Assembly (NCBI GenBank): GCA_025642065.1
Contig: JAODUP010000268.1
Coordinates: 170,001 to 234,000, forward strand
DNA from: Paralvinella palmiformis
Lineage: Eukaryota; Annelida; Polychaeta; Terebellida; Alvinellidae
DNA: 64,000 bases
Direction: 5' to 3'
Position 1 is the first letter of the stretch; each line of letters starts with the position of its first letter. Position numbers and translations under genes: made by a program. The notes below the pieces were generated by a model. The model ran no database searches, was not told the DNA's origin, and saw nothing but the letters and a program-made list of their open reading frames with translations. This document shows, piece by piece, positions 11,231 to 56,064 of this stretch.

Positions 11231-13145
11231 TAATCCGTCATAATAACCTTAAGGTAGCCTACTGTAAACATTTATTAGTATATCATTAATCCTAATTCTA
11301 TAACTCTATTATGGTATATAGTAGATGTTTATTTGGCTAGATGACAACACTTCACGGCTAGAATAACCTTTGACAACGAAACAACAAAGACTGTTCTTGA
11401 TATATATATATTTATATATATATATATATATATATGACTGGAAGAGATTCAAAAAGTGGCTTCTTGTATTCTCTGTGTGCTACGCGTGTTGACGCGGAAC
11501 ATTATTTTTTCAGATCAGCTGTTTACGTCAAACCAGCTGTAATTTGGTATCTGATTAAGAACTTAATGATCAGAGGGTTATGTCCCCCGTGTCCTGCCTA
11601 ATCATGTCACTCCTAGCCAAGCCTACAGTAAAACATTTGATTTAAAATTTATCATTTTGTTCCTAAAATGGACGACTTTATTATTGTGTTACTAATGACT
11701 AGTGCTGATTCTAGGGACCGTCTCCAAACTGTAATAGATACTGCTAGTGGGTTATCTGAGCTATAGTCCTGAATATACGATAACGGAATCTCGATGTATG
11801 TCCGTCTGTCTGTCTGTCTGTCTGATTGTGTTTCTGTGTCTGTCTGTATGTTTCTATATCAGCCTATCTGTCTGTCTTACTGTCTGTCTATCTATCAGTC
11901 TATCTCCACCAGATTGTTAACCCCCCCCCCCCCAGCCCTCACCATAACGTGACCTTTATAATAGTGATACCAAGTTTAGTTTTTCCGACGTTCGTGGTCT
12001 TGACAATCAGACATTAGACGACCAGTATTATGTTATTGTATTGGTCTGGTTATAATATAGAGAGGGGGGGAATGGGAAAGTGGGCACAGATAGGGAAGAG
12101 AAGGGTAAAAGGAGAGAGGATGGATGAGTCAAGAGATACTTCGTAGAGAGAGAAATGGATAAAACGAAAGAAGAGGAAGGAGTGGGGAGGGAGCGATAAG
12201 AAAGAGGGGTAAGATGGGAGAGGAGGGAGAAGTTAGGTGAGACATGATATAGAAAGGGGATAAATCTACAATTATTGTAACATCTTCGGTATATCATCGA
12301 ATTATATACACTTTATAGAATAATAATAATAATAATATCGTGGTGATTAGGGGGAGGTAGATAGCTATAGCCTCCCTTCGGCCAATTTCACCCCAGTTTG
12401 ATATGTCATAGCCCACTAGGATCATTCTATAATATCACTGTATCATTATATCACGATATCACTATATCACGATATCACTATAATCACTAATTGTTCTTTA
12501 CCTAGATCTACCAGACAGTTTACCTACAATGATGACATATAATAGATATTAATATATTTGTCTAAATCTGAATATCTTCATCATCATCATCATCCTCAAA
12601 CCAACTCTAGAGCCAAACGTGCGTTGACCACAGTTCTCTAGCACATGAGTTCAAATCCCAAAGCAGCTTTGTCTGAAGGTTGTTTCATCTTTCAGAGACT
12701 GATTGACATAGGGAGTGAGTTAGTAAGTTACTGAATGAGGTAATAAAAGAGGCAATGAATGGGGTTGTGAATACTGTCTAAAGACAGTCAGTTTTAACGC
12801 TCTCTAACACCAGACATCACCGTGTCAATAACAGGGTGACCTCTAAAACGACGATAGAGGTCACTCTTATCTAGAACGGTGAAACTAATAGACGTTAATA
12901 TAGACAGGATAATTATATAAACGAAATAGATATGACACGCTGATAATAATAGACATGTCAGTAGCATGCCAACGAGTTGTCAATGTCTTCATCATAATCA
13001 CATTACCACTGTCACATGACACGCCACGTGATACAGCTGTCCATGAGACTTCATTTATGACGTAACTGTAATTGGTGTCATATTTGGCATTGTAGTTGTC
13101 GTAGTAGATAGATATTGGTGTGTAGTTGGTGATTTAGTTGGTTTT

Positions 13146-13625
13146 ATGGTTGGTGCTATAGTTTGTGATATAGTTGGTGATATAGTTGGTGATATAGTTG
13201 GTGATATAGTTCGTGATATAGTTGGTGATGTAGTTAGTGATGTAGTTGGTGATATAGTTGGTGATGTAGTTGGTGATGTAGTTGGTGATATAGTTGGTGA
13301 TATAGTTGGTGATGTAGTTGGTGATATAGTTGGTGATATAGTTGGTGATATAGTTGGTGATGTAGTTGGTGATGTAGTTGGTGATATAGTTGGTGATATA
13401 GTTGGTGATGTAGTTGGTGATATAGTTGGTGATATAGTTGGTGATATAGTTGGTGATATAGTTGGTGATGTAGTTGGTGATATAGTTGGTGATATAGTTG
13501 GTGATATAGTTGGTGATGTAGTTGGTGATGTAGTTGGTGATATAGTTGGTGATATAGTTGGTGATGTAGTTGGTGATATAGTTGGTGATATAGTTGGTGA
13601 TATAGTTGGTGATATAGTTGGCTGT
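13146..13625 (+). repeat. Minisatellite, 12-bp unit, 40 copies
   Basis: Forty near-perfect copies of a 12-bp unit (GTTGGTGATATA or GTTGGTGATGTA). A 160-codon frame stays open, giving the tetrapeptide VGDI/VGDV, but that is forced by the unit length. The two unit types form a higher-order pattern: VVIIVIII, then VVIIVIIIIVIII, then VVIIVIIII. Irregular units (VRDI, VSDV) occur only near the 5' end. There is no signal peptide or splice context that would make it a protein. Confidence 0.93.
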
Positions 13626-13929
13626 TAGTATATATTATTGGCCGGTTGTTATAAGAGTCTGTAGCTGGCGGTAGTGATGATATGGTTTATCTTCTCTATA
13701 GATCTCCTCATTTTACGGTATATTGTAAGTGATCTGACAACTTGAATAGGACGAGACAGTCAGACTGTAATATGTAGCTAACAGTCAAAATGTACACCAT
13801 CGGATAACATTCGGACTGTACACTATCGGATAACAATCACACTGTACCAGTTACAGTCAGACTGTACCATATGACTGTTTTGTATAGTTTACTTTCCTTC
13901 ATCAAACGTTGTATATATTAGTTATATAG

Positions 13930-31568: not shown

Positions 31569-32252
31569 CTATAGAAGTAATCCATACGTTAAGTAAGGGT
31601 GTACCATGCTGTAATACATGGTTTTGAGTATTGTCGTCGGCAAAATATTTTTTATTGAATTTATGGCATAAATTCCACTGGCCATTTTACTATTGCACAT
31701 TTTTAAATGTTCATCCCACTCTAGGTGCTGATCTATTATTAATCCTAAGAATTTGGTTGAATCTAGTTTGCTAATGTTGTACCCATTTCGATATAATTTA
31801 TGAATTCCAGTGTCAATCGTCTTGTTGTGCTTGCTGAATAGGATATAGTTGTGTGTTTTTTTGGTGGTATTTAGAGATAGCTTATTTGCTCTAAACCAGT
31901 CTGCTAATATAGTCAAATCATTATTTAAAGTGTCATACAGGTACGCAAGATTGTTAGAGGAACAAAATACTGTAGTGTCATCAGCAAATAGAATAGTTTT
32001 GCTACTCTTCATCGACATGGGTAAATCATTTGTATATATTATGAACAGTAATGGGCCAAGAACTGATCCCTGTGGGACTCCACAAACAATTTCCTGGGTT
32101 TGGGATCTACAATTTTTATATTCAACGTATTGCTTACGATTTTTCAAATAATTGCTAAACCACTCCAATGCCACTCCTCTCACACCATAATATCCAAGTT
32201 TGTTCAATAGTGTTTGGTGATTAATTGTGTCAAAGGCCTTGGAGAGGTCCAA
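31569..32252 (-). pseudogene. LINE reverse transcriptase domain piece
   Basis: 227 codons carrying DLSKAFDTINHQTLL (palm motif A), CGVPQGSVLGPLLFIIYTND (motif B) and LFADDTTVF (motif C, FADD catalytic pair), then KFLGLIIDQHLEWDEH. The catalytic aspartates are present, but the ORF is cut from its N- and C-terminal parts. The preceding piece (32324-32608) carries YRPVSLLPCISKNLEKLIHKRL and SQYGFVRN. Confidence 0.9.
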
Positions 32253-33442
32253 AAATACTGCTAGAGAACATTGATTATTTTCAAAAGAATTAACAATATT
32301 GTAACAAAGTTCCGTTATCGCATTTATTGTGCTGTGTTTCGGACAAATCCATATTGACTCTTGTACAGTATGTTATATTTTATTAGGAAATTATACAGTC
32401 TCTTGTGAATTAACTTCTCTAAATTTTTTGAAATACATGGCAATAGTGATACCGGCCTATAATTATTAAAGATATAGTTCTCTTTAGCCTTATAAATAAG
32501 CACTACCTTGACTAGCTTGAGAGGTGCTGGAACTTCGCCATTTTCTAAAGATTTATTTAATATCACAGTCAACGGAGTGGAAATTGCAAATTGTATTTGT
32601 TTCAGCAAACGTGTGCTAATACCATCATGGCCAGTACTTTTTTGCTTTTCAACGAATTTATAATCTGTAAAACCTCATCGGAACTCGTGGGTACTAAATA
32701 TAAAGGCTTGGCATTTGAATTAGTTATCATATATTCTTTGAATGATTTAGTTCCCTTTGGGATTTTATCCACTAATTGTTTGCCAATTTCAGTAAAATAT
32801 TTACAGAAACTATTTGATATAACATCAGGATTATTTACACCATTATCATCAATAATACATTTATCAGCTATTGTATTTTTATTCCTCGTTCTCCCAATTA
32901 GAATATTCAATACTTCCCACGTTTTACGTATGTCATGTTTGTATCGTTCTAGCGGGGTTCTATAATAGGTTTCTTTTGTTATTCGTTTAATTTTATGGAA
33001 TTCATTTCTGTATTTGATGAACTTTGCATGTGTTACTTCCAATTTTTCATTAAGAATTTACTTTCTGTGCAGTTTATCGTTTGTTTGTGATGATTTAAGT
33101 AATCCCGACGACATCCAAGGTTGTCGAATTATGTGTTTTTGTTGAATAATCAGTTCTTTTTCAGATGCAAATTTGTCAATCACTTGAGATAAAATATCAA
33201 TAAAATAGTTGTACCCCTCTTCGGGTGTCATATTATCAAGAACAGCCCAATTACTATTTGTTAAAGAAGTAATTATATTGTTAATATTGGTTTCCGACAT
33301 AGATCTACATTTAAACTGTAAAGGTGCTCTATCTTGATGTTTTCTCTTCCTAGTTGTAAATGTGAAAATATTCCTGAAATCATTTAAAACTTATTATTAC
33401 CTTTAACATATATATTATCAATTATAGTTGCTGAACTATGTG

Positions 33443-34120
33443 TTATTCTCGTTGGCTTAGTAATCGTTGGAATAAAGTTTCGGGAATAGAATATGTCAAA
33501 TAAATCAGAGGTATTTTATGCGTATTAATTTTGGCAAAATCAAAATTTTGGTCAGTTGCGAGGATTTGGTCACACTTCTCAGTATTAAGCTTTTCTAATA
33601 TATTATTAAAACGCGCAATGGATGTCTTCTCGTTTGTATCAGGTATTCCGTAAATATCTCCCAGAATGATTTTATGTTCAACTGACTTGATTTCTATAAA
33701 TAAACTTTCAAACTGTCCGTCTACATTGATGCAAATATCAGGCCTCTCACAATACTCAAAACCATCTTTGATGTACATCGCTACACCACCCCTGTTAGAA
33801 TTGGTCCTGTTTCGATAAATAAAATTGTAGCCGGAGATATTATACATGTGTACATTTTTGTCAGTTAAAAACGTTTCAAACAATAGGATAAAATCAAAAT
33901 TTTCCCCATACATTTCAATTCTATGAAGCATCATTTTCAAATTGTCAAATTTGCTAGGAATACCTTGAATATTTATATGTATGACACTGTATTCGTGTTT
34001 TCCACTAATTGAGACATGTTCAAGATCCTCAATATCATAGTAATCGCATTCCTTATTAAATAGCCTTTGTTGCTCTTCAAGACGTTCATCATATTCATTA
34101 TCTTTAAGCATGTCAACCAT
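33443..34120 (-). pseudogene. LINE endonuclease domain piece
   Basis: 225 codons. HINIQGIPSKFDNLK matches the family's HLNIRSL start of the endonuclease fold. RGGVAMYIKDGFEY, ESLFIEIKSVEHKIILGDIY and the degenerate ATDQNFDFAKINTHK (normally GDFN) follow. The downstream frame shift breaks the link to reverse transcriptase. Confidence 0.75.
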
Positions 34121-34151
34121 GATTTACCCAGTCTATGACTCCCCAAATATA

Positions 34152-35072: not shown

Positions 35073-37559
35073 AATAATTTCAAATAAGTTTAACGCACAG
35101 ACACAATATCGTTTCTGCCCGATGATTATTTTAATAAAATAAAAATTTAATCGACATGGTTATCGAAACAATTTATCATAATATTAACTAATTAAGAATA
35201 TATAGTTTTAATTTTTTCGAATGTCAATTTTAGTTTAGAAAGACACTAGAATATTAAATTTATTGTTCACTAATTATTACGTAGCAATAATTACAACTCT
35301 TAACTAGAATTGTTATAAAATCAGATAAAGCTATAGCAGACTGTTCCATAAGTCAAAGATAAAATGTATAAGGTTCGATGACGTTGTCCGCAATCCACGT
35401 GCTTTTCATAAAAACCGTAAAAACAAATAAACGTTTAGCCATTAATGGCATTATCTACTGGCATTAGCTTTTTTATGTTCTATCGTCAGAAGGTAATTAA
35501 ACATTTTGAATTAATGAAGTAGAAAACATGGAAAGCCTGCCATAATAATAATAATAACTATGCGGTATAAATATTAATTTGACAGAAATCACATAAATAT
35601 AGATGCCAAATCATGGGTTGACATATGTGCGGTCCTGATCTGTCATCTGACACATTTAATTTAATGTGAATATCGGAGTTTTAAATATCAAACGATATTA
35701 TATCGGTGTTTAGATTGTACTTTAATTAGTTCCTGGTAATTCATTGACGTTGTTGAAATTAGATCTAATTAGGCTGTGCCGAATGAACGATAGCCTGGGG
35801 ATTCTCCCCGAACAACAAAGCCATTAGATCTAGTTATAACAGCGAGTTAGCCGAGTATGTATCAATTTTGAGAAATTGTGAGATTTAACACACTTTATTT
35901 CAATGAGTGCATAGCTATAGTATAGTAGTATAGTATGTTCTGATATCAAACTACTACACGTTAGTCTGTTAGTTACTTGTTACTAACTAGATCTAAGACA
36001 AGTTGTAAATCTAGTACTAGTAGTAGTAGGTCTAACTAGAATAAATAATCAGTCAATGTTTTTTTGTTGTTGTTGAATTTCTCTATCACAGTATCAGCCT
36101 AGATAGAGTATCTACATGTCTATCTAGTCTATAATATTCTGTCGTCTAGACTATATTATATCCGGTATGAAGGTTGAACTTGATCTTGAAGGTATATAAG
36201 GTAATAAGCTGTGTACCTGGAACCCAGCTACAGAATTTCACATTATAGTATTAGACTCATTATTATGATTATTTAAAGTTACTAAATCATGCACTAATTT
36301 TTGTAAATGAACTGTCTAAGTGCTGAATGTACGGAATAAAGAATAATAATGATGATATATAATAATGACTGGTTTATTCAGGAGGGTATTGAAATATTAT
36401 ATGTTAATATTGAATCCACACCAAAAGCAATAATTCATTAATTGTTTTAAGTAAAAGATGGAATATATTAAAGGCAGGGTTGGCAGTTTCTGCCTGCCAG
36501 GGCAGAAATAGGTTTCACCCATTATTTTGGCAGAAATAGTCAGGTAGACCATATATTTCAGTAAAGATAGGCAATTAATTACTTATTTCATTAGTTGTCC
36601 AGCTGGATGATAAAAAAATTAATAAAAGATTTTAATTCTGATGTTTGGAATACAAGACTATGTGTAAGATCTGCCAAGTACCACTTCAGTATGAAAGTTA
36701 AAATAAGACTGGCATGAAGTAAATCTTCACAAAAATTGATTAAAGTATTATTATAATTTTATATCTTCTGACATAGACAGATAGTGTTTATTTAGAATAA
36801 GATAGGCTGACACTTTTTCTATCCCACTTATTTTTCCAATCCCTGCCTTCATTATACAGTTGCGACAGTGAATATATTAATTATTAAGACAGGTCTGAAT
36901 TGGATATAGAGTCATTATAATCTTGGATCAGTAAGGTTATCATAATATTTACAGTACTTATATAAAATTGGACATACATTTATGCATGAATTCAATATTT
37001 CTCTTTATGATCAGGTAAAAATATGAGGAAATAGATTGTTATATAAAGGTTGCATGTAAAGTGTGCATAGATGTTATTAATAAGAAAATACTTTAAAAAC
37101 ATAGTAAGTAACACCGATTATTAATAATATTTAGTATTAATTACTATGTTTTAAAATTTCTACATGAATTCAATATTTCTCTGTATGATCAGCTATAAAT
37201 ATCAGGAAATAGATTATTATACATGTATAAAGGTTGCACTTAAAGCGTGCATATTTTAAAAACATATTAATTAAAACCAGTTATTATTAATAATCAGTGT
37301 TAATTACTATGTTTTAAAAATGTTTTCTTTTACCCACAAAATAATGCAAATAGGTTCTTCTATATTTGTTATTTTTATGTTACATAATTACGTAATAGAC
37401 TATAGTGTGTATATTGTTTGTTGATTATATGTCAAATAAGATAATCACATATTCAAGAAAGTACTTTCTTGTTTTCTACTTACAGCCAATCCTACATGTC
37501 TTATTATTGATAATAATAACATAATGTGATATTATATTTAGCATGTTTGATCATCATAG
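35073..37559. other. Region upstream of SELENOP, no proven exon
   Basis: Very AT-rich. A TATATAAGG box at about 36193 and an AATAAAG at about 36336 lie in what may be a short repeat. Two diverged copies of one ~150-bp sequence occur at about 36990-37130 and 37165-37320 (shared GAATTCAATATTTCTCT..ATGATCAG). A hydrophobic frame at 37320-37391 could be a signal-peptide exon (see findings). Confidence 0.4.
35771..35820 (+). repeat. Dispersed 50-bp motif with GGGGATTCTCCCC hairpin
   Basis: Matches 29102-29151 at about 45 of 50 positions: GGCTGTGCCGAA..., GGGGATTCTCCCCGAACAAC. The core GGGGA-TTC-TCCCC is a perfect 5-bp stem. Confidence 0.75.
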
Positions 37560-37726
37560 GTGGAAACCAGTGATATAGCTGTCATGGCAACATCACAGCT
37601 AGTCACTTCAGACATGGAAGCCTTAACTGTAAATGGAGATACTGTGATGGCTACTATCAAGGGCAAAGTCACAGTAGTAACAGCCTTGACTTCTAACTGT
37701 CAGTATTGATGTCAGCAAGCTGCTTG
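37560..37726 (+). CDS. SELENOP: Selenoprotein P, exon with CxxU redox motif
   Basis: Selenoprotein P is a secreted, thioredoxin-fold selenium carrier in animals. The exon is bounded by an AG at 37558-37559 and a GTAATT donor at 37727. The first in-frame ATG (37584, GTCATGG context) gives MATSQLVTSD...; the exon then reads GKVTVVTALTSNCQY-UGA-CQQAA. GKVTVV aligns with vertebrate SNGSVTVVALLQAS, and the vertebrate U-x-x-C site becomes C39-Q-Y-U42-C43 when numbered from this ATG. No signal peptide follows the ATG, so an upstream exon may be missing; the codon before 37560 in the same frame is TAG. The exon ends with two bases (TG) of a split Trp codon completed in the next exon. Identification rests on the alignment across four exons. 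Confidence 0.8.
37707..37709 (+). other. SELENOP: Putative selenocysteine codon, position 42
   Basis: UGA in the CQY-U-C active-site context. The vertebrate active-site Sec aligns three residues earlier, with Cys39 here. Confidence 0.75.
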
Positions 37727-38914
37727 GTAATTATTTCAAATTAATAGTTCAGTTAAAATGGTATACAAAAGAGTTTTGTTAATTTTCTGCACAGTAATTT
37801 GTTAATTTAATAAAGTTTTGTTGAGCAGATAATTTCATCTGTGTAGTTCAAAATGTTTAAATTAAATATAAATGCTTGTATTGTTCACTGTTTATTTAAA
37901 AACTACTGCAAAGAATCTGAGCATATAGTAATTTAAATTCTTTTCTGTTTATAATATATTTTACATGTATCTGTATATAGAAGGCATTACTATAGGTATT
38001 ACTTTCTTTGGTAAAATATATAATTACAGTTACTGTCAGACATTACATTGTTATAACAATATGTGAATGAGAGAACAAAACAAATTATTATATTTGACAC
38101 TTCTGAGATAAATATGTCACAAATTTGTTGGCTATGCCAATATTTATATATTTTTTTTAAATTGACAGTTTATAACACTGTCATATCATAAACATGTTTC
38201 TAACTTGACTTCATAAACCCTAGATTAATTCATGGTTTTTGACATTGTGTCATAAACTTGCCAACTCTGATAATGATATCAATTATAAATATGCATTCTG
38301 TGTTATTCTTATGTATTCAGATATTAGACACCTTTAGATATCTTGTATGTACACCTCTTTACTAAACTATGTGTAGAAATGCTGTGATATTGTACATTTT
38401 GCTGAATATATCATGTGATTTATGTATTACTCTTTATTTACTATAAGCTAGTGCTATGACATTTACAAATATCTGCTGCAAGTTTTATATGGAACATGTT
38501 TATATATACATTTAGACCATCTGACAAGTAGTTTGGCTGTTATCATTTCATTCTAGAGAAGAAGGGGGTCACTTTAAGAATAACCTTGAAACATGTAAAT
38601 TAAATGCATATGCTTAGTATGAAGATAATTTAATGTTTCTATCCTTGGAATAATAAGTTATTTAAAATAAGATTTTTTAACATAAATGTTAGCTGTTACA
38701 ATTTATCATCTACTTTAAATTGTGTTTTAGCACAATAGTAGATTTATCGTTTTATTAGATTTTAGATAGCTAAATTATATGACTCACATACATAGATATG
38801 TGTAGTTCCTGATTAGTATGTTAGTAATTTTAGTTTCACACCTAAAGACATGTTACATTAATAACTATAGATGTATAACTTTTTCCGACTCTTTGCCTAA
38901 TATTTTTTTAACAT

Positions 38915-39705
38915 GAGTAGATACTCCGAGTACCTACTTGGATTACATACTCTGAGTAGTTTATATTCCAAGTAGGATTGTCATGGAAGAAATATTTCTG
39001 AATTAAAAAATGAAATGGTAAATTAATTTATGGATTTAATTTAATTTTGCCTGTTCTAAACATTGAACGGGTGTAAATTCCTAAATAGCAATATCTCTAT
39101 ATAGATTACAGGCATGCTATGTGGTGGTGTCACCATGTTGTGGGTGGAGCCCAAGGTATCCAGACCAATCAGTGTGCATATTTTATATATATATATATAA
39201 GGAACCAAAGTTCTGGATCAATTTGGTTCCAGTGTATTGGTAACAGCACATGTAAGTGTTAACATGGTAAAATTAGCACAAGCCTAACCACAAGGCGCTT
39301 TTAGCTAAAGAGGTATTATATCACGTGGTGAATCATAGTCTCGGGTGCATCCCCATGTAAGAGTATATTTTCTAATCATTAAAGGTGTGTTTATATTCCA
39401 CTACCCAGTAGGAGCCTTGAAATGAATGTATTTGCTTAGCTCTGCCCAGCAGGAGTCAGACCCTGTATTTACTTTCACAACCCTGCTGGGTACTAAACCA
39501 AAGCTCTGGATCATTATGGTTCCAGTATATTGGTAACACCACATGTAAGGGTTAACATTGTAAAAATGGTATATTAATTTTTGGATTTAATTTTTTGTAG
39601 GAAACTTCAAATTCAAAATTGTTCAATTCCAATTCAAAATTTCTCAATTCCAATTCATTTTTTTTTAAATAATCAATTCCGGAATTGAATTGACCCCATG
39701 TCTGA
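38915..39705 (+). repeat. MITE-like repeat split by a second insertion, in SELENOP intron 1
   Basis: The left part (38915-39060) starts with AGTAGATACTCCGAGTACCTACT, a 23-nt near-palindrome, followed by GATTGTCATGGAAG...AATTAATTTATGG. The right part (39560-39705) carries TTTTTGGATTTAATTTTTTG and several CAATTCCAATTC units. The same order occurs uninterrupted at 48713-48935. Between the halves lies a ~490-bp insert with 70-bp direct repeats at 39202-39272 and 39496-39566. Confidence 0.65.
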
Positions 39706-39870
39706 TGAGAAGACTAAGAATTATAGTTATACATAATAAACAAATAGGAAACATGAACTGAGTAGAACCAATTGGATGTTTCCAAAGGAAATATCAGATA
39801 TTCTCCATACCTAAGTCATGTACATATTCTGATTTAAAGTGTTTAGTAAAATCACAGATTTATCCTTCAG

Positions 39871-40071
39871 GTTGGACAGCCTACATGAAAGATTCTCTTC
39901 CGAGAAGAAAGACATAATTCTTTATGGGATTAATTCTGCACAGTGTCCTTCCAAGCAGTCATTGGAGCAGCTCAGAGCCAGTGTCCACTTTCCAATTTAT
40001 CAAGACAATGTTACAAACAGATTTTGGCAAAGATTGGGTCTTAAGCCACAGGATATACAAGTCTATAACAG
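39871..40071 (+). CDS. SELENOP: Selenoprotein P, thioredoxin-fold exon
   Basis: 201 nt between TTATCCTTCAG and a perfect AG|GTGAGT donor. It supplies residues 49-114: LDSLHERFSSEKKDIILYG, then a variable loop, SLEQLRASVHFPIYQDN, FWQRLGLKPQDIQVYN. This follows vertebrate selenoprotein P element by element: LEDLRVKLKKEG, then ISYIVVNHQ, then HIPVYQQEE, then VWTLL, then DDFLIYDR. The reading starts after the TTCAG acceptor, not at the earlier ACAG, because only that choice keeps frame with exon 37560-37726 and gives QAAWLDSL against vertebrate QASKLEDL. Intron 1 (2,144 bp) holds inserted repeats. Confidence 0.9.
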
Positions 40072-40293
40072 GTGAGTGACTAATCCATATTGTATGATTC
40101 TTCCTGTGAATAATTTAATAAAAATATAATATATATGCAGAATCCTGGCAGTTATAAAACTCATTATTTATAATTGTCTTTTTCTTATTAATAATATTTC
40201 TTATTAAATTAATATTGTAATTAATTAAATAAGAATACAATTGCCTATAGAATCCTGAATATCCGTCTGAGATAATAGTTCTATTTATTGTAG

Positions 40294-40435
40294 ATGAGGA
40301 CAACTAGCTCATGATATTCCATATCCAGAGAGCAGGGAATGTCATGGCCTGACTGAAAAGACGATATTATCTGTGTGGCTCTGAGGTGACTGACCCTCAT
40401 CAACATCTTGTTCTAATGTACAGATCTCAGATAAG
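40294..40435 (+). CDS. SELENOP: Selenoprotein P, exon with three in-frame UGA codons
   Basis: Begins after TTTATTGTAG. Its first base completes an Arg codon and the next codon is UGA (40295), giving YNR-U-GQL where vertebrates have YDR-C-GRL. The exon continues AHDIPYPESRECHGLTEKTI, LSVWL, then UGA-G-D-UGA (40382, 40391) and PSSTSCSNVQISDK. The UGD-U cluster falls where vertebrates have IAYCEKKCGNC, so all three UGAs replace or neighbour conserved cysteines. There is no other stop in this frame. The donor is AAG|GTACTA at 40436. UGA only at Cys-equivalent places argues for selenocysteine and against a pseudogene. Confidence 0.82.
40295..40297 (+). other. SELENOP: Putative selenocysteine codon, position 116
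   Basis: UGA in R-U-G-Q-L, in place of the cysteine of vertebrate RCGRL. Confidence 0.78.
40382..40393 (+). other. SELENOP: Putative selenocysteine pair, positions 145 and 148
   Basis: Two UGA codons separated by Gly-Asp (U-x-x-U), in the area of the vertebrate C-E-K-K-C-G-N-C cluster. Confidence 0.72.
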
Positions 40436-40808
40436 GTACTAGTATTAGAAACACACTTTATCTTATGACAGTTTACTGATTAGAGGATCATTATTTTATA
40501 GTTGTTGGCTAGGTCTAAGATCATTATTTTATGATGGCTTACTGGATAGAATCAGTTTTATGATAAGTGGCTGAATGGAATCTATTTTATGAAGGCTGAC
40601 TGAGTAATATCCATTTTGTGATGATTGGCTGAGTGGAATCATGGTGTTACAGCAGAATGATCATACTATTGTTAATCTAGAATTTAGTCAGATATTTATT
40701 TATTATATAAATCAAAAACTTTCCTATTTTTTTATGTGCTACACCCTTTTTTAGTTACCATTGACATCATTTCATATTTTTAATTATAACTAATATGTAT
40801 GTTTTCAG

Positions 40809-41009
40809 GGAGATGAAAAAGATAAAACTATGTTATCTTCTAACGTTTCACAGTGTCCATGTCAACTGGACAGCCAATTTCAGTGTCAACAAACTGAGCA
40901 ATCTGAGCGTCAACATTACGAACATGAGAGACAGGATGAGAGTTGCGACCAGGAAAGTTCTGTAACTTGACAGAAAGTATCAACTCAGACTGAATCTAGC
41001 TGAAATTAA
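40809..41009 (+). CDS. SELENOP: Selenoprotein P, last coding exon ending UGA...UGA-AAU-UAA
   Basis: Follows TATGTTTTCAG in phase 0. It encodes a short hydrophilic tail: GDEKDKTMLSSNVSQCPCQL, FQCQQTEQSERQHYEHERQ, DESCDQESSVT, UGA (40968), QKVSTQTESS, UGA (41001), N, TAA (41007). The tail is Gln/Glu-rich with a CPC motif and several Cys, like the Cys/Sec-rich C-terminus of animal selenoprotein P but much shorter. If both UGAs are read, the protein from 37584 is 228 residues with Sec at 42, 116, 145, 148, 216 and 227; if the first is the stop, it is 215. The sequence alone does not decide this. Confidence 0.7.
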
Positions 41010-44000
41010 ACTAAAGATCTTGTTATTTAATGCAGTTTCTATATAAGATTATAGCATAAGTGTGATCCAGCTGCCGGTGTAATTTTTCTCATGTTTTTAA
41101 TTACACAAGGTGTTTGTGGATATCCCATTTTATCTTTCTTTGAAAAATCTTGTGTAATATGATTATCAAAATTGAGACTCATCTATCATTTTATTTGGAG
41201 ATGCACTTGTGAATTAGTCATAAATATATTAGGTTTCGATGGTACTTTACCTGAATCATATAATAATCTTGAGATGGTGGTTTGTTTTTACTTAATATAT
41301 GAAGATAGTGTGGCTGGTCAGAAACTGTTATCTTAACAATAGACATGTAAAGGCAACAACCACATTTAAAAAAGTATTATTGTCACTTTCTCTTATAATA
41401 TGTCGCATGCTACAAATGGGAAATCACATATACCAAATATAGTTCGACATGTTGCCAAAATTGGCATGATATTGAATATATTTATGGTTCAAACCACACC
41501 AAATACCTTCTAGCTCATTAAAAGGTGGCTGTATCTATTTTTAAAACATAATTAATTGCCATTTTTTCAATAATTAGGTTACAAAGTTAGAAATTGGACG
41601 GAGCTATGTGCTTTAATTAGTAATAGATTAGCTAGAGTCTGGATAAAGCTAGATTTATCAGATCAGTCAAATTATAGATCATTACTGGGTGACAACAACA
41701 ATATTAAAATGATGTTTTTCTGAGGTTTATTAATGATTGTTTACAACGAAAACCTGTTGGTTGTTGGAGACCTGATAAAATTTAAACTAAAGAAAGCTTC
41801 ATTGTTAGTAATATGATGGTTAATTTTCTGTATATGGAATGAATGGATGGATGAGTGGAATTTAATGAGACATCGTCACAAATTAGGCTGTCTAGTTTCC
41901 TACAAATTGTTCACTGTTAGATAATATCGTAGAATGTTTGGACTTCAATTTGTTGGCATTATTAGCCATAAGTGATGAGCAATAAATATACACATTTCAT
42001 TAACATGAGTTATTGCTCAGTATTTTAAAGATAAAGTTTTAATCTTCCTAATTACATAACATGCGGAATTTAATCTTTTCAAACTGATTATATGTATTTT
42101 AACATTAATTTACACAATAAGTTGTCATAGAGGTATTATTACTTGATAAATTATTGACAGTACATATGTGGCTGTTAATTTTCTGTGTATCAGTTAATGT
42201 TGTATGTTTATTTGTGTGTTTGTTGATCTTGTATGTTTAGTTGTATGGCTGTTATGTGTATTCAAACTTGTGTTATTACAGTAGGAGGTAAAATTTTATA
42301 TTATTTGAGGGGGGGGGGTTCTGAGATTTGTTTTATAAAAAAGTTAAAATAATCCACCAATGATGATATTATCATTATTATTTATGAGCAGTTATACATT
42401 TATGATGTGTTTATTTTCAAAAAGTGTTGAATATTTCAAATAATATATACTATTGATGAGATTTTGTTTTGTAAAGTTTTCTGTTATTGTTATTAATCAA
42501 ATTTAAATTAGGCTTAGTATAAAATTATTTAGTGTGAAGTATTTATTAACAATGGTAAATTAAGAATCTGTTTGTTTTTTCAACAAATTATATAAGCAAT
42601 GTCATGTCTATAATATATGTAATAAATAATAATGTTCAAAATACCAATATGATTTTTTTTAAACCCATTATTTTATCCGATATATTTGTGCTAATTTATA
42701 TATATATACACACACCTTCCCCCATTTAAAACCACCTATAATTGAGTAATTATAAAAGAGAAGGGGGCAATCTCTCATGAGGGGTTGAGCTGTGTAGTGG
42801 TATCTGACCAATAAATAGATACATCACTTTTTGTCAAGAAGACAATAAAGAGTGCATAATTTAAATATGCAGTCGAGTGTTGTTGAACAAATCACTGATT
42901 TATTATGTGTTTTCATGGATAATGGCGAGTGGCACAACCTCCCAGTTGTTGAGAGCCTTTTGTATGATAGTTTCATTCTCATCAATGTTGGCAAATAATT
43001 CACAAATGATACTGGTAAGTTAAAGCTTAGTTTCAAGTGATGACTGGTCAGCGACTGCAAAAAATATAAGATAAAAGCATTTTTGTAATTTGAAGTGGAC
43101 TAAATGCTACTCTGCTGATAACTTCTGAAATAAAACATTGCTTATTGAATTAAATTCTTCTGAACTGCTATCAACCTTGAAAATGTTGACGAGATAAACT
43201 GAATTGTACATTCAAACAACAATATAATGGCAAAAAGCAGTCACATAGAGAAATTTAGGAATCTACATCTTCCGAAACACTTGACGGTGATACTTGTTTG
43301 TGTGACGTGTCGGTTTCGTCATCCATTACCCGATGTAGTATATGTCAAAAAGGGTGTTTTTATACTACATATTAACTGTCTAAATGATGCCTGCATCATA
43401 CGCTAGAGCTTAGACATAGTTATTGTGGTAGAGAAGCCAGCTTGATGTGTGACAATTGAATATTCTGGGTGGGCTGCGCAGTTGTGGACAAACATACTAA
43501 TATGCCTCTGCTCGAATCACATCTTGTTGATCAAACGGTTTAGCCAAACAGTGAAAATAAAGATGGCAATACATGGTGTCTTGGGTTCCATATCATAACA
43601 CCCTCCAATCAAAATCCACTACGATAAATAGTGAAATGATCAAAAAAAAACTCTTATGTTTGATCTTAGAGCGACTGAATAGATTAAAGTAATTGGGAAG
43701 CCTTGGCAAAATCCATAAGTAATTGAGAAGCCTCGATTATAGCTACTTATATTCTATGATAAAATAATTAAGCAGTTCATTGTGAACATCAAAGTACATG
43801 TAGCAAGTGTCACTTGGAGTGCTATAATTGTGGTTAGGATCTGGTCTATTAATCATTCATTCTTATGACAACCATGGAAGTTAAACAAAATAACAAGGCG
43901 GTTAAAAGCTTCTGCATGAAGGAATATACCAAAAAGAACAAGTCTAAGTCTACTATGGGATGGAAATGCTGCAACAGAGTTTTCCTTTCCTGAAGGTATT

Positions 44001-54010: not shown

Positions 54011-56064
54011 ATAACTGAAAAGAAGAAGAAAAAGAAGAAAAAAATTAATTAAACACCCAAACGGCTCCAGAACAAATACATTTTCAGCAACATCTTAAAA
54101 ATGTTCAGTCTTTTGGATTCACGAATGTGAGCTGGGAGTGTATTCCATAGCTTGGCTGCTGAACACTGAAATTTCTTTCGCCATAGCTAGATGTTCTAAC
54201 TCTTGGAACCACCAATGTCACTGAACCCATCGAACGTAGTATTCTTCTTGGTTGATAAACTGTCAAGATGTCAGATATGTATCTTGGAGCCTGTTCATGT
54301 AGGGCTTTCTACGTGTGCATCAGGATCTTAAATTGCACTCGATACTTAACAGGCAACCAATGCAGATCCTTCAATAACGGTGTAATGTGACTCCGGCGTG
54401 ATGTTCGGGTTACAATCCGCGCCGCCGTAATCTGTATACGTTGTAACTTGTTAATGGAGGTCTGGGGCAGTCCATTGAGCGTTACAGTAGTCCAAACGTG
54501 ATGTTATAAGCCCATTAACCAGTGACTTACTTGCATCACTTGTTAAGTAACGCCTAATATGCCCAATGTTACGGAGTTGGTGATAGCCAGCCCTACAGAT
54601 ATTATTCAACTGTGGCTCCATATTTAGTGCAGAGTCAAAGATAACACCTAAGTTCCTCACAGTATTCACTGGTGTTATATTAATGTCACCAAAACAAACA
54701 GTAACGTTTTCCATATGGATGGCATTATGCTTAGATGTGAACAGCATAACTTCCGTCTTGTCACTATTCAGTTTGAGCATGTTTGTACGCATCCATCCCT
54801 CAATGTCAGTAAGACAGTTCTCAATGAGTGAGACGGATTGTGCTTTCACAGCGTCTTCCTTCGCTTTGAATGAGATGTATAGTTGTGTGTCATCTGCATA
54901 AAAATGGTAAGAAAGTCCATGCTTTTAGAGGCTTAGCATACATGGTGTATTTCTTCGGGCCGAGTACCGAGCCTTGTGGTACACCATATTTCAGGAGTAC
55001 TGGCTTAGAATGCTCGCTATCTATGACCGCTACCTGGAAGCGGTCTGTAAGGTATGATGTTATCCATTTGAGATTCCCAATACATTCTCAAAGCGACTCA
55101 ACAAGATTCCATGTTCGAGAGTATCAAATGCATGACCAACACTGTGACAAAACCATTATCAAGAGACTCGAGGATATCGCTTGTACCTTCAGAAGTGCCG
55201 TCTCTCACGATGAGAGTCTTCACTTCGTCTTCTGATGCGTGAGTAAACCTCTCCAGTGGTGTATTTACAGATGAGGTATCGACGTCCTGCTCAATACTGT
55301 ACATCTGATCTAGCTGGAGGTCACGTCAGGATGTTTTGTATCTTATTAATAAAGAAAGAGCTGAACATCTCGGTTAGTTCACTGGGATACCCTGTCTGGG
55401 GAAGAGATGTTGATCCCCTGTCGCCAAGCAGGTGTTTGGCCACTTTGTATATGCCCTTCTGGTCATGGACGCAGGCAGTGATCTTTTCAGAATAGTAAGC
55501 TATCCTGGTTTGTTTTAGGAGTTTATTCACCGCAATACATTGATCTCTATATATTTGGTGGTTAACAGTCAAGCGACTCTTTTTCCATCGTCGTTCCAGT
55601 TTTCATCGGAGATGTTTAGCTTTAGGTAATGTATCGGTGTACCATGGACAATCAGGACGCTCTGTAATAGTTCTAGTACGAAGAGGTGCATGCTTATCAA
55701 TAAGTGATGTTAGTCCATTTGTAAAAGCAGTCACCAAACCATCTACATTACTTTGTGTAGTTTGTAACATGGAGGAAACTACGATGTCATGCTTAAAAGC
55801 CTCCACATCTATGGCACGTAGTTTTCCATATGAAACAATCTTCTACGTGTGAGCAGGTTTCAGCAGGATTGTGGTGAATCCTACAGCGAAGTGGTCACCT
55901 GTCAGTTTCCCAAGGTGGTCGCAAAGTCCCGGATCAGTGGTGGTAACGTCCGATATGATGTGACTGGACGGATATGAACACACCCTATATGAAAATATGG
56001 ATGGAGAGCTTGCGAGCAATTTCATGGGTATACACACACTCCGCCAAGTACAACCAGATGACAT

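Follow-up and report, generated by a model that had tools for sequence, protein, structure and literature searches.

A probable selenoprotein P-family gene with a reversed redox pair and six in-frame UGA codons in the vent annelid Paralvinella palmiformis

Vertebrate selenoprotein P (SELENOP, Sepp1) combines a SelP_N domain carrying a UxxC redox motif with a long Sec-rich tail, two SECIS elements, and a leader peptide. We analyzed a 64-kb stretch of P. palmiformis DNA (hereafter, the window) in which a gene on the plus strand shares with vertebrate SELENOP the SelP_N domain, an alignable N-terminal part, and the place and phase of an intron. In contrast to the vertebrate gene, it encodes CxxU instead of UxxC and has UGA at the positions of human Cys140, Cys172, and Cys175; it has no long tail, one SECIS candidate was found, and no leader was seen. 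The CxxU order is that of the redox pair in SELENOW, SELENOT, and SELENOM. These belong to different families whose likeness to the window protein is confined to the motif, and they are possible working analogues.

Sepp1b (SelPb) is, like the window gene, a short form, and section 4.4 of PMC5133445 gives it one SECIS with an apical helix (type 2), as in the candidate described below; its Sec UGA is single, in contrast to the six UGAs and the reversed pair of the window gene. A SelP_N-type domain with several Sec residues, as proposed for the window protein, also occurs in amphioxus 3NSelP and in other SELENOP proteins of invertebrates, according to the available parts of PMC3473315 and PMC8744743, but the three repeated domains of 3NSelP are unlike the gene studied here. 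SELENOP is described as Sec-rich in annelids, ribbon worms (nemerteans), and mollusks in the available text of PMC8744743. The early survey in PMC3473315 reports SelP in Lottia and amphioxus and, in its available text, lists none for the annelid Capitella. In the literature searched, which consisted partly of excerpts and did not extend to the key survey by Baclaocos et al. (2019), we recognized neither a CxxU SELENOP nor an alvinellid SELENOP. The available text of two alvinellid papers (PMC12403961 and PMC3018142) did not contain SELENOP as a term; PMC3018142 names selenoprotein N.

Joined, four exons on the plus strand make up an open frame 236 codons long, of which 228 are counted from the ATG at 37584-37586 (Met1). 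Exon 1 spans 37560-37726, with an uncertain 5' limit, and is followed by exon 2 (39871-40071), exon 3 (40294-40435), and exon 4 (40809-41009), which ends with a TAA at 41007-41009. Each of the three introns begins with GT and ends with AG, and the splice sites and the joined frame are intact. Met1 is matched by the first residue of one related predicted protein (P0001) and by an internal Met of another (P0003). The four-exon, frame-consistent gene with CQYU, RUGQL, and WLUGDU that an earlier sequence-only reading of this DNA had described is therefore present in full, and its short protein of about 228 residues without a long Sec-rich tail was also recovered.

The joined frame contains six in-frame stops before the final TAA, all of them TGA, with no TAA or TAG. 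UGA 1 (37707-37709, residue 42 from Met1) is in exon 1; UGA 2 (40295-40297, residue 116), UGA 3 (40382-40384, residue 145), and UGA 4 (40391-40393, residue 148) are in exon 3, the last two forming the first and second U of UGDU; UGA 5 (40968-40970, residue 216) and UGA 6 (41001-41003, residue 227, the penultimate codon) are in exon 4. Sec had been predicted at residues 42, 116, 145, and 148. All four are in-frame UGA codons, but the list was incomplete, as two more lie near the C-terminus. In a one-step mutation model with transitions weighted 2:1, TGA accounts for 0.24 of the possible new stops in this frame, and the chance of TGA at six of six is approximately 2e-4.

The public annotation of the locus is the hypothetical protein LSH36_268g02014 of P. 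palmiformis (P0002), which we reproduced letter for letter from the window. The mollusc setting assumed earlier was thus mistaken: the window comes from an annelid of the Alvinellidae. The pieces of the public model lie at 35475-35492, 37560-37702, 39871-40071, and 40809 onwards. Its exon stops four bases ahead of UGA 1, exon 3 with its three UGAs is skipped, exon 2 is retained, and exon 4 is read in a different frame. This model (35475-41009) is an artefact of UGA avoidance, with a false donor after 37702.

No tandem second copy was found in the window, where tblastn returned the four exons and three matches at E of at least 3. A long UGA-rich tail was likewise not found elsewhere among 12 UGA-dense frames on both strands; several of these are simple repeats, and the rest were judged unrelated by eye only. 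A long tandem repeat at 13137-13634 is open in several frames on both strands, and one of its plus-strand frames is UGA-dense. Pfam matched part of a reverse transcriptase (RVT_1, E = 1e-27) in 31572-34123 on the minus strand, together with a weak, endonuclease-like fragment that fell below the cut-off; these are the remains of a LINE-like element. The RVT_1 match was the sole one above the cut-off among the ten ORFs scanned with Pfam. A second reverse-transcriptase-like piece, slightly under the Pfam cut-off, lies at 54454-54924 on the same strand.

We searched Pfam with the joined protein, in which UGA was written as Cys. SelP_N (PF04592) matched with an E-value of 1.2e-19 and 71.1 bits, far over the cut-off of 23.2, in agreement with the proposal of a divergent SELENOP-family protein. 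Redoxin and AhpC-TSA matched under their cut-offs, and exons 1 to 3 submitted alone gave zero Pfam matches. Local alignment with human SELENOP scored 142 with UGA as Cys (1000 shuffles: mean, 39.5; maximum, 82) and 106 with UGA as X (shuffle maximum, 59). Among solved structures, the window protein had weak thioredoxin-like matches (best E, 0.0052), and the N-terminus of human SELENOP had none. Structure prediction for P0001 with P0002 and P0003 gave a low mean pLDDT of 42.4, and no weight is given to the predicted order of strands and helices, which looks thioredoxin-like with C39 heading a helix; a PDB fold search with this structure returned zero matches at E up to 0.001. The UxxC redox motif is absent from the N-terminal domain, where CQYU is found instead. 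A Sec-rich C-terminal tail is also absent, the final 13 codons containing just two UGAs. Because both features were looked for and neither was found, the gene is filed, as judged from its sequence, as a putative SelP_N-family selenoprotein of new form and not as canonical SELENOP.

C39-Q-Y-U42 aligns without a gap over human U59-Y-L-C62, placing the Cys39 codon (TGT, 37698-37700) over human Sec59 and UGA 1 over human Cys62. According to the available text of PMC5133445, vertebrate UGA1 precedes a highly conserved, ancestral intron by 26 nt. In the window gene, the exon continues for 26 nt after the Cys39 codon and for 17 nt after UGA 1. The intron after Cys39 matches the vertebrate SELENOP intron in phase (phase 2) and in the aligned codon. 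By the vertebrate-like distance, phase, and aligned codon, Cys therefore occupies the place of vertebrate UGA1, and UGA occupies the place of the vertebrate Cys. The reversal of the redox pair to CxxU, as first read from the letters, is thus upheld by the gap-free alignment and by the position and phase of the intron.

UGA 2 aligns over C140, the Cys of human RCGRL. U145-G-D-U148 falls over human C172-G-N-C175 with UGA as Cys, but this placement is less firm, as the same stretch falls in a gap with UGA as X. The claim that UGA stands at places that are Cys in human SELENOP, including RUGQL against RCGRL, agrees with this alignment. The human counterpart that had been named for WLUGDU, YCEKKC, does not, since UGDU falls over CGNC with UGA as Cys.

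Protein searches (2 of 108, 3 of 824, and 1 of 11 candidates) yielded only P0001 to P0003 as wider relatives. P0001, from a 1383-nt contig, is 59% identical to the window protein in the alignment. It has nine W residues, three at Trp codons of the window gene and six at its UGAs (6 of 6), and none elsewhere. The natural reading is that P0001 stems from a spliced transcript in which the gene call took TGA as Trp, its W residues being seen at the protein level. Identity between successive UGAs was 25/41, 48/73, 19/28, 2/2, 29/62, 3/10, and 0/1; the two proteins agree well as far as UGA 4, moderately in the tail, and weakly past UGA 5, where the spacing and both W residues are kept. Loss of conservation beyond the UGAs had been set as a sign against the selenoprotein; it is not seen in P0001, the sole relative readable past them. 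P0003, from a 963-nt contig, reads MATAQ...DCQH and ends just ahead of the place of UGA 1. Its predicted protein has 91 residues ahead of the shared Met, a hydrophobic stretch among them; we take residues 1-91 as intron sequence, a leader being a possible alternative. Searches of prokaryote and virus collections gave 59 and 48 pattern matches, respectively, none of which was a relative by tblastn; copies with UGA were perhaps missed here, because the patterns had Trp codons at the UGA places.

The SECIS looked for downstream of the gene has one candidate, at 41724-41788 on the plus strand, the same strand as the gene. It lies 714 nt past the stop, within what would be the 3' UTR, and matches Rfam SECIS_1 at 24.8 bits, below the gathering threshold of 35, at which there were zero matches. 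With the whole window searched against 4227 families its E-value is 2, which by division is approximately 5e-4 for one family, and it is the sole SECIS match in the 64 kb on both strands at E up to 10. The candidate carries AUGA, AAA, and UGA at its core and has a small helix at the apex. The fold of this strand had a z-score of -2.39, and 3 of 200 shuffles folded equally well. A crude pairing scan ranked the candidate 12th on the plus strand, and an energy-based scan ranked it first across both strands (-8.6 kcal/mol, against -4.1 for the next). In 400 shuffles, the energy-based scan gave 146 matches in total (0.365 per 64-kb strand), with at least one in 113 of the 400. The SECIS scans alone are weak, and the argument rests on the strand, the place, and the Rfam score. 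The first AATAAA after the candidate, a possible polyadenylation signal, is at 41981-41986. ATTAAA occurs at 41517 and 41703, both upstream of the candidate, and with these the mRNA could end before the SECIS. A second SECIS-like stem-loop (43006-43055, -9.8) appeared in a relaxed scan of 41010-43500 only; it lies past the AATAAA at 41981 and is absent from the Rfam matches.

We consider this locus to be a gene of the SELENOP family that encodes Sec and carries its redox pair in reversed order, with a probability of roughly 0.8 as judged from these comparisons. A decaying SELENOP pseudogene, its UGAs being ordinary nonsense mutations, would be in keeping with a public model that splices around them, but is very improbable given TGA at six of six in-frame stops, the intact splice sites and frame, the SECIS candidate, and a 59% identical relative in which the frame runs on past all six places. 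The same candidate speaks against the UGAs being read as tryptophan, for which the W residues of P0001 could be cited. This reading has next to no probability: the DNA is that of an annelid and has introns, the aligned human residues are Cys, and a gene call with TGA as Trp would account for W. A selenoprotein whose true stop is UGA 5 or UGA 6, with four or five Sec residues only, is unlikely but deserves more weight than either of these. UGA doubles as a stop codon, and identity from UGA 5 to UGA 6 is just 3/10 in P0001; against this, in P0001 the distance between the place of UGA 5 and the C-terminus is unchanged, W stands for both codons, and the second W is followed by a residue.

Secretion as in vertebrate SELENOP, with a leader on an upstream exon, is compatible with the Sec-coding gene and is a possibility that we place somewhat below even odds. 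Vertebrate SELENOP has a leader, as stated in the available text of PMC8230778. The frame at 37560 is preceded by a possible splice acceptor, the public model has an extra upstream exon at 35475-35492, and the P0003 prediction extends upstream of the shared Met with its hydrophobic stretch. Yet P0001 begins at the shared Met, and upstream of it the window and P0003 have little in common. The top 12-residue mean hydropathy of the first part reaches 2.18 in human SELENOP, compared with 1.28 in the window protein and 1.31 in P0001. By hydropathy and comparison with the relatives, no leader peptide was seen after the shared Met of the window protein, and an intracellular place is therefore possible.

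As a Sec-coding gene, the locus would have its six UGAs read as selenocysteine under a single SECIS approximately 0.7 kb past the stop. Relative to the vertebrate protein, UxxC would have become CxxU in the thioredoxin-like domain, the second Cys pair UGDU, and the Cys of RCG Sec, with two further Sec near the C-terminus. The product would most likely be a multi-selenol thiol/selenol oxidoreductase, in which Cys39 and Sec42 may form a selenenylsulfide during turnover. Other CxxU redox selenoproteins form such a bond, and the CxxC that would be replaced here by UxxU is a disulfide in rat SELENOP. The available text of PMC8230778 confirms disulfides and a selenide-sulfide in SELENOP and does not name those CxxC residues. 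The UxxU pair and the tail may act as a further redox relay or a selenium store, and metal binding is a further possible role for a protein of 228 residues with as many as six selenols. We hold the proposed redox chemistry to be about evenly balanced between right and wrong.

More tentatively, and with greater doubt than even secretion, this annelid SELENOP lineage may have given up secretion and selenium transport and turned into a leaderless intracellular multi-selenol redox protein with a reversed pair, further Cys-to-Sec changes, and one SECIS. The public gene model would then have been cut around the coding sequence of a selenoprotein, and the locus would provide an intron-anchored case of Sec/Cys exchange in one active site. 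Since the swap lies within one family, that family could be used to weigh what Sec contributes as the attacking residue against what it contributes as the resolving one. Several UGAs under a single SECIS were imagined in section 4.4 of PMC5133445 as an early state of vertebrate SELENOP. If our reading is true, the P. palmiformis gene would be a living case of this arrangement, and with it one could test whether a single SECIS is enough for several scattered UGAs.
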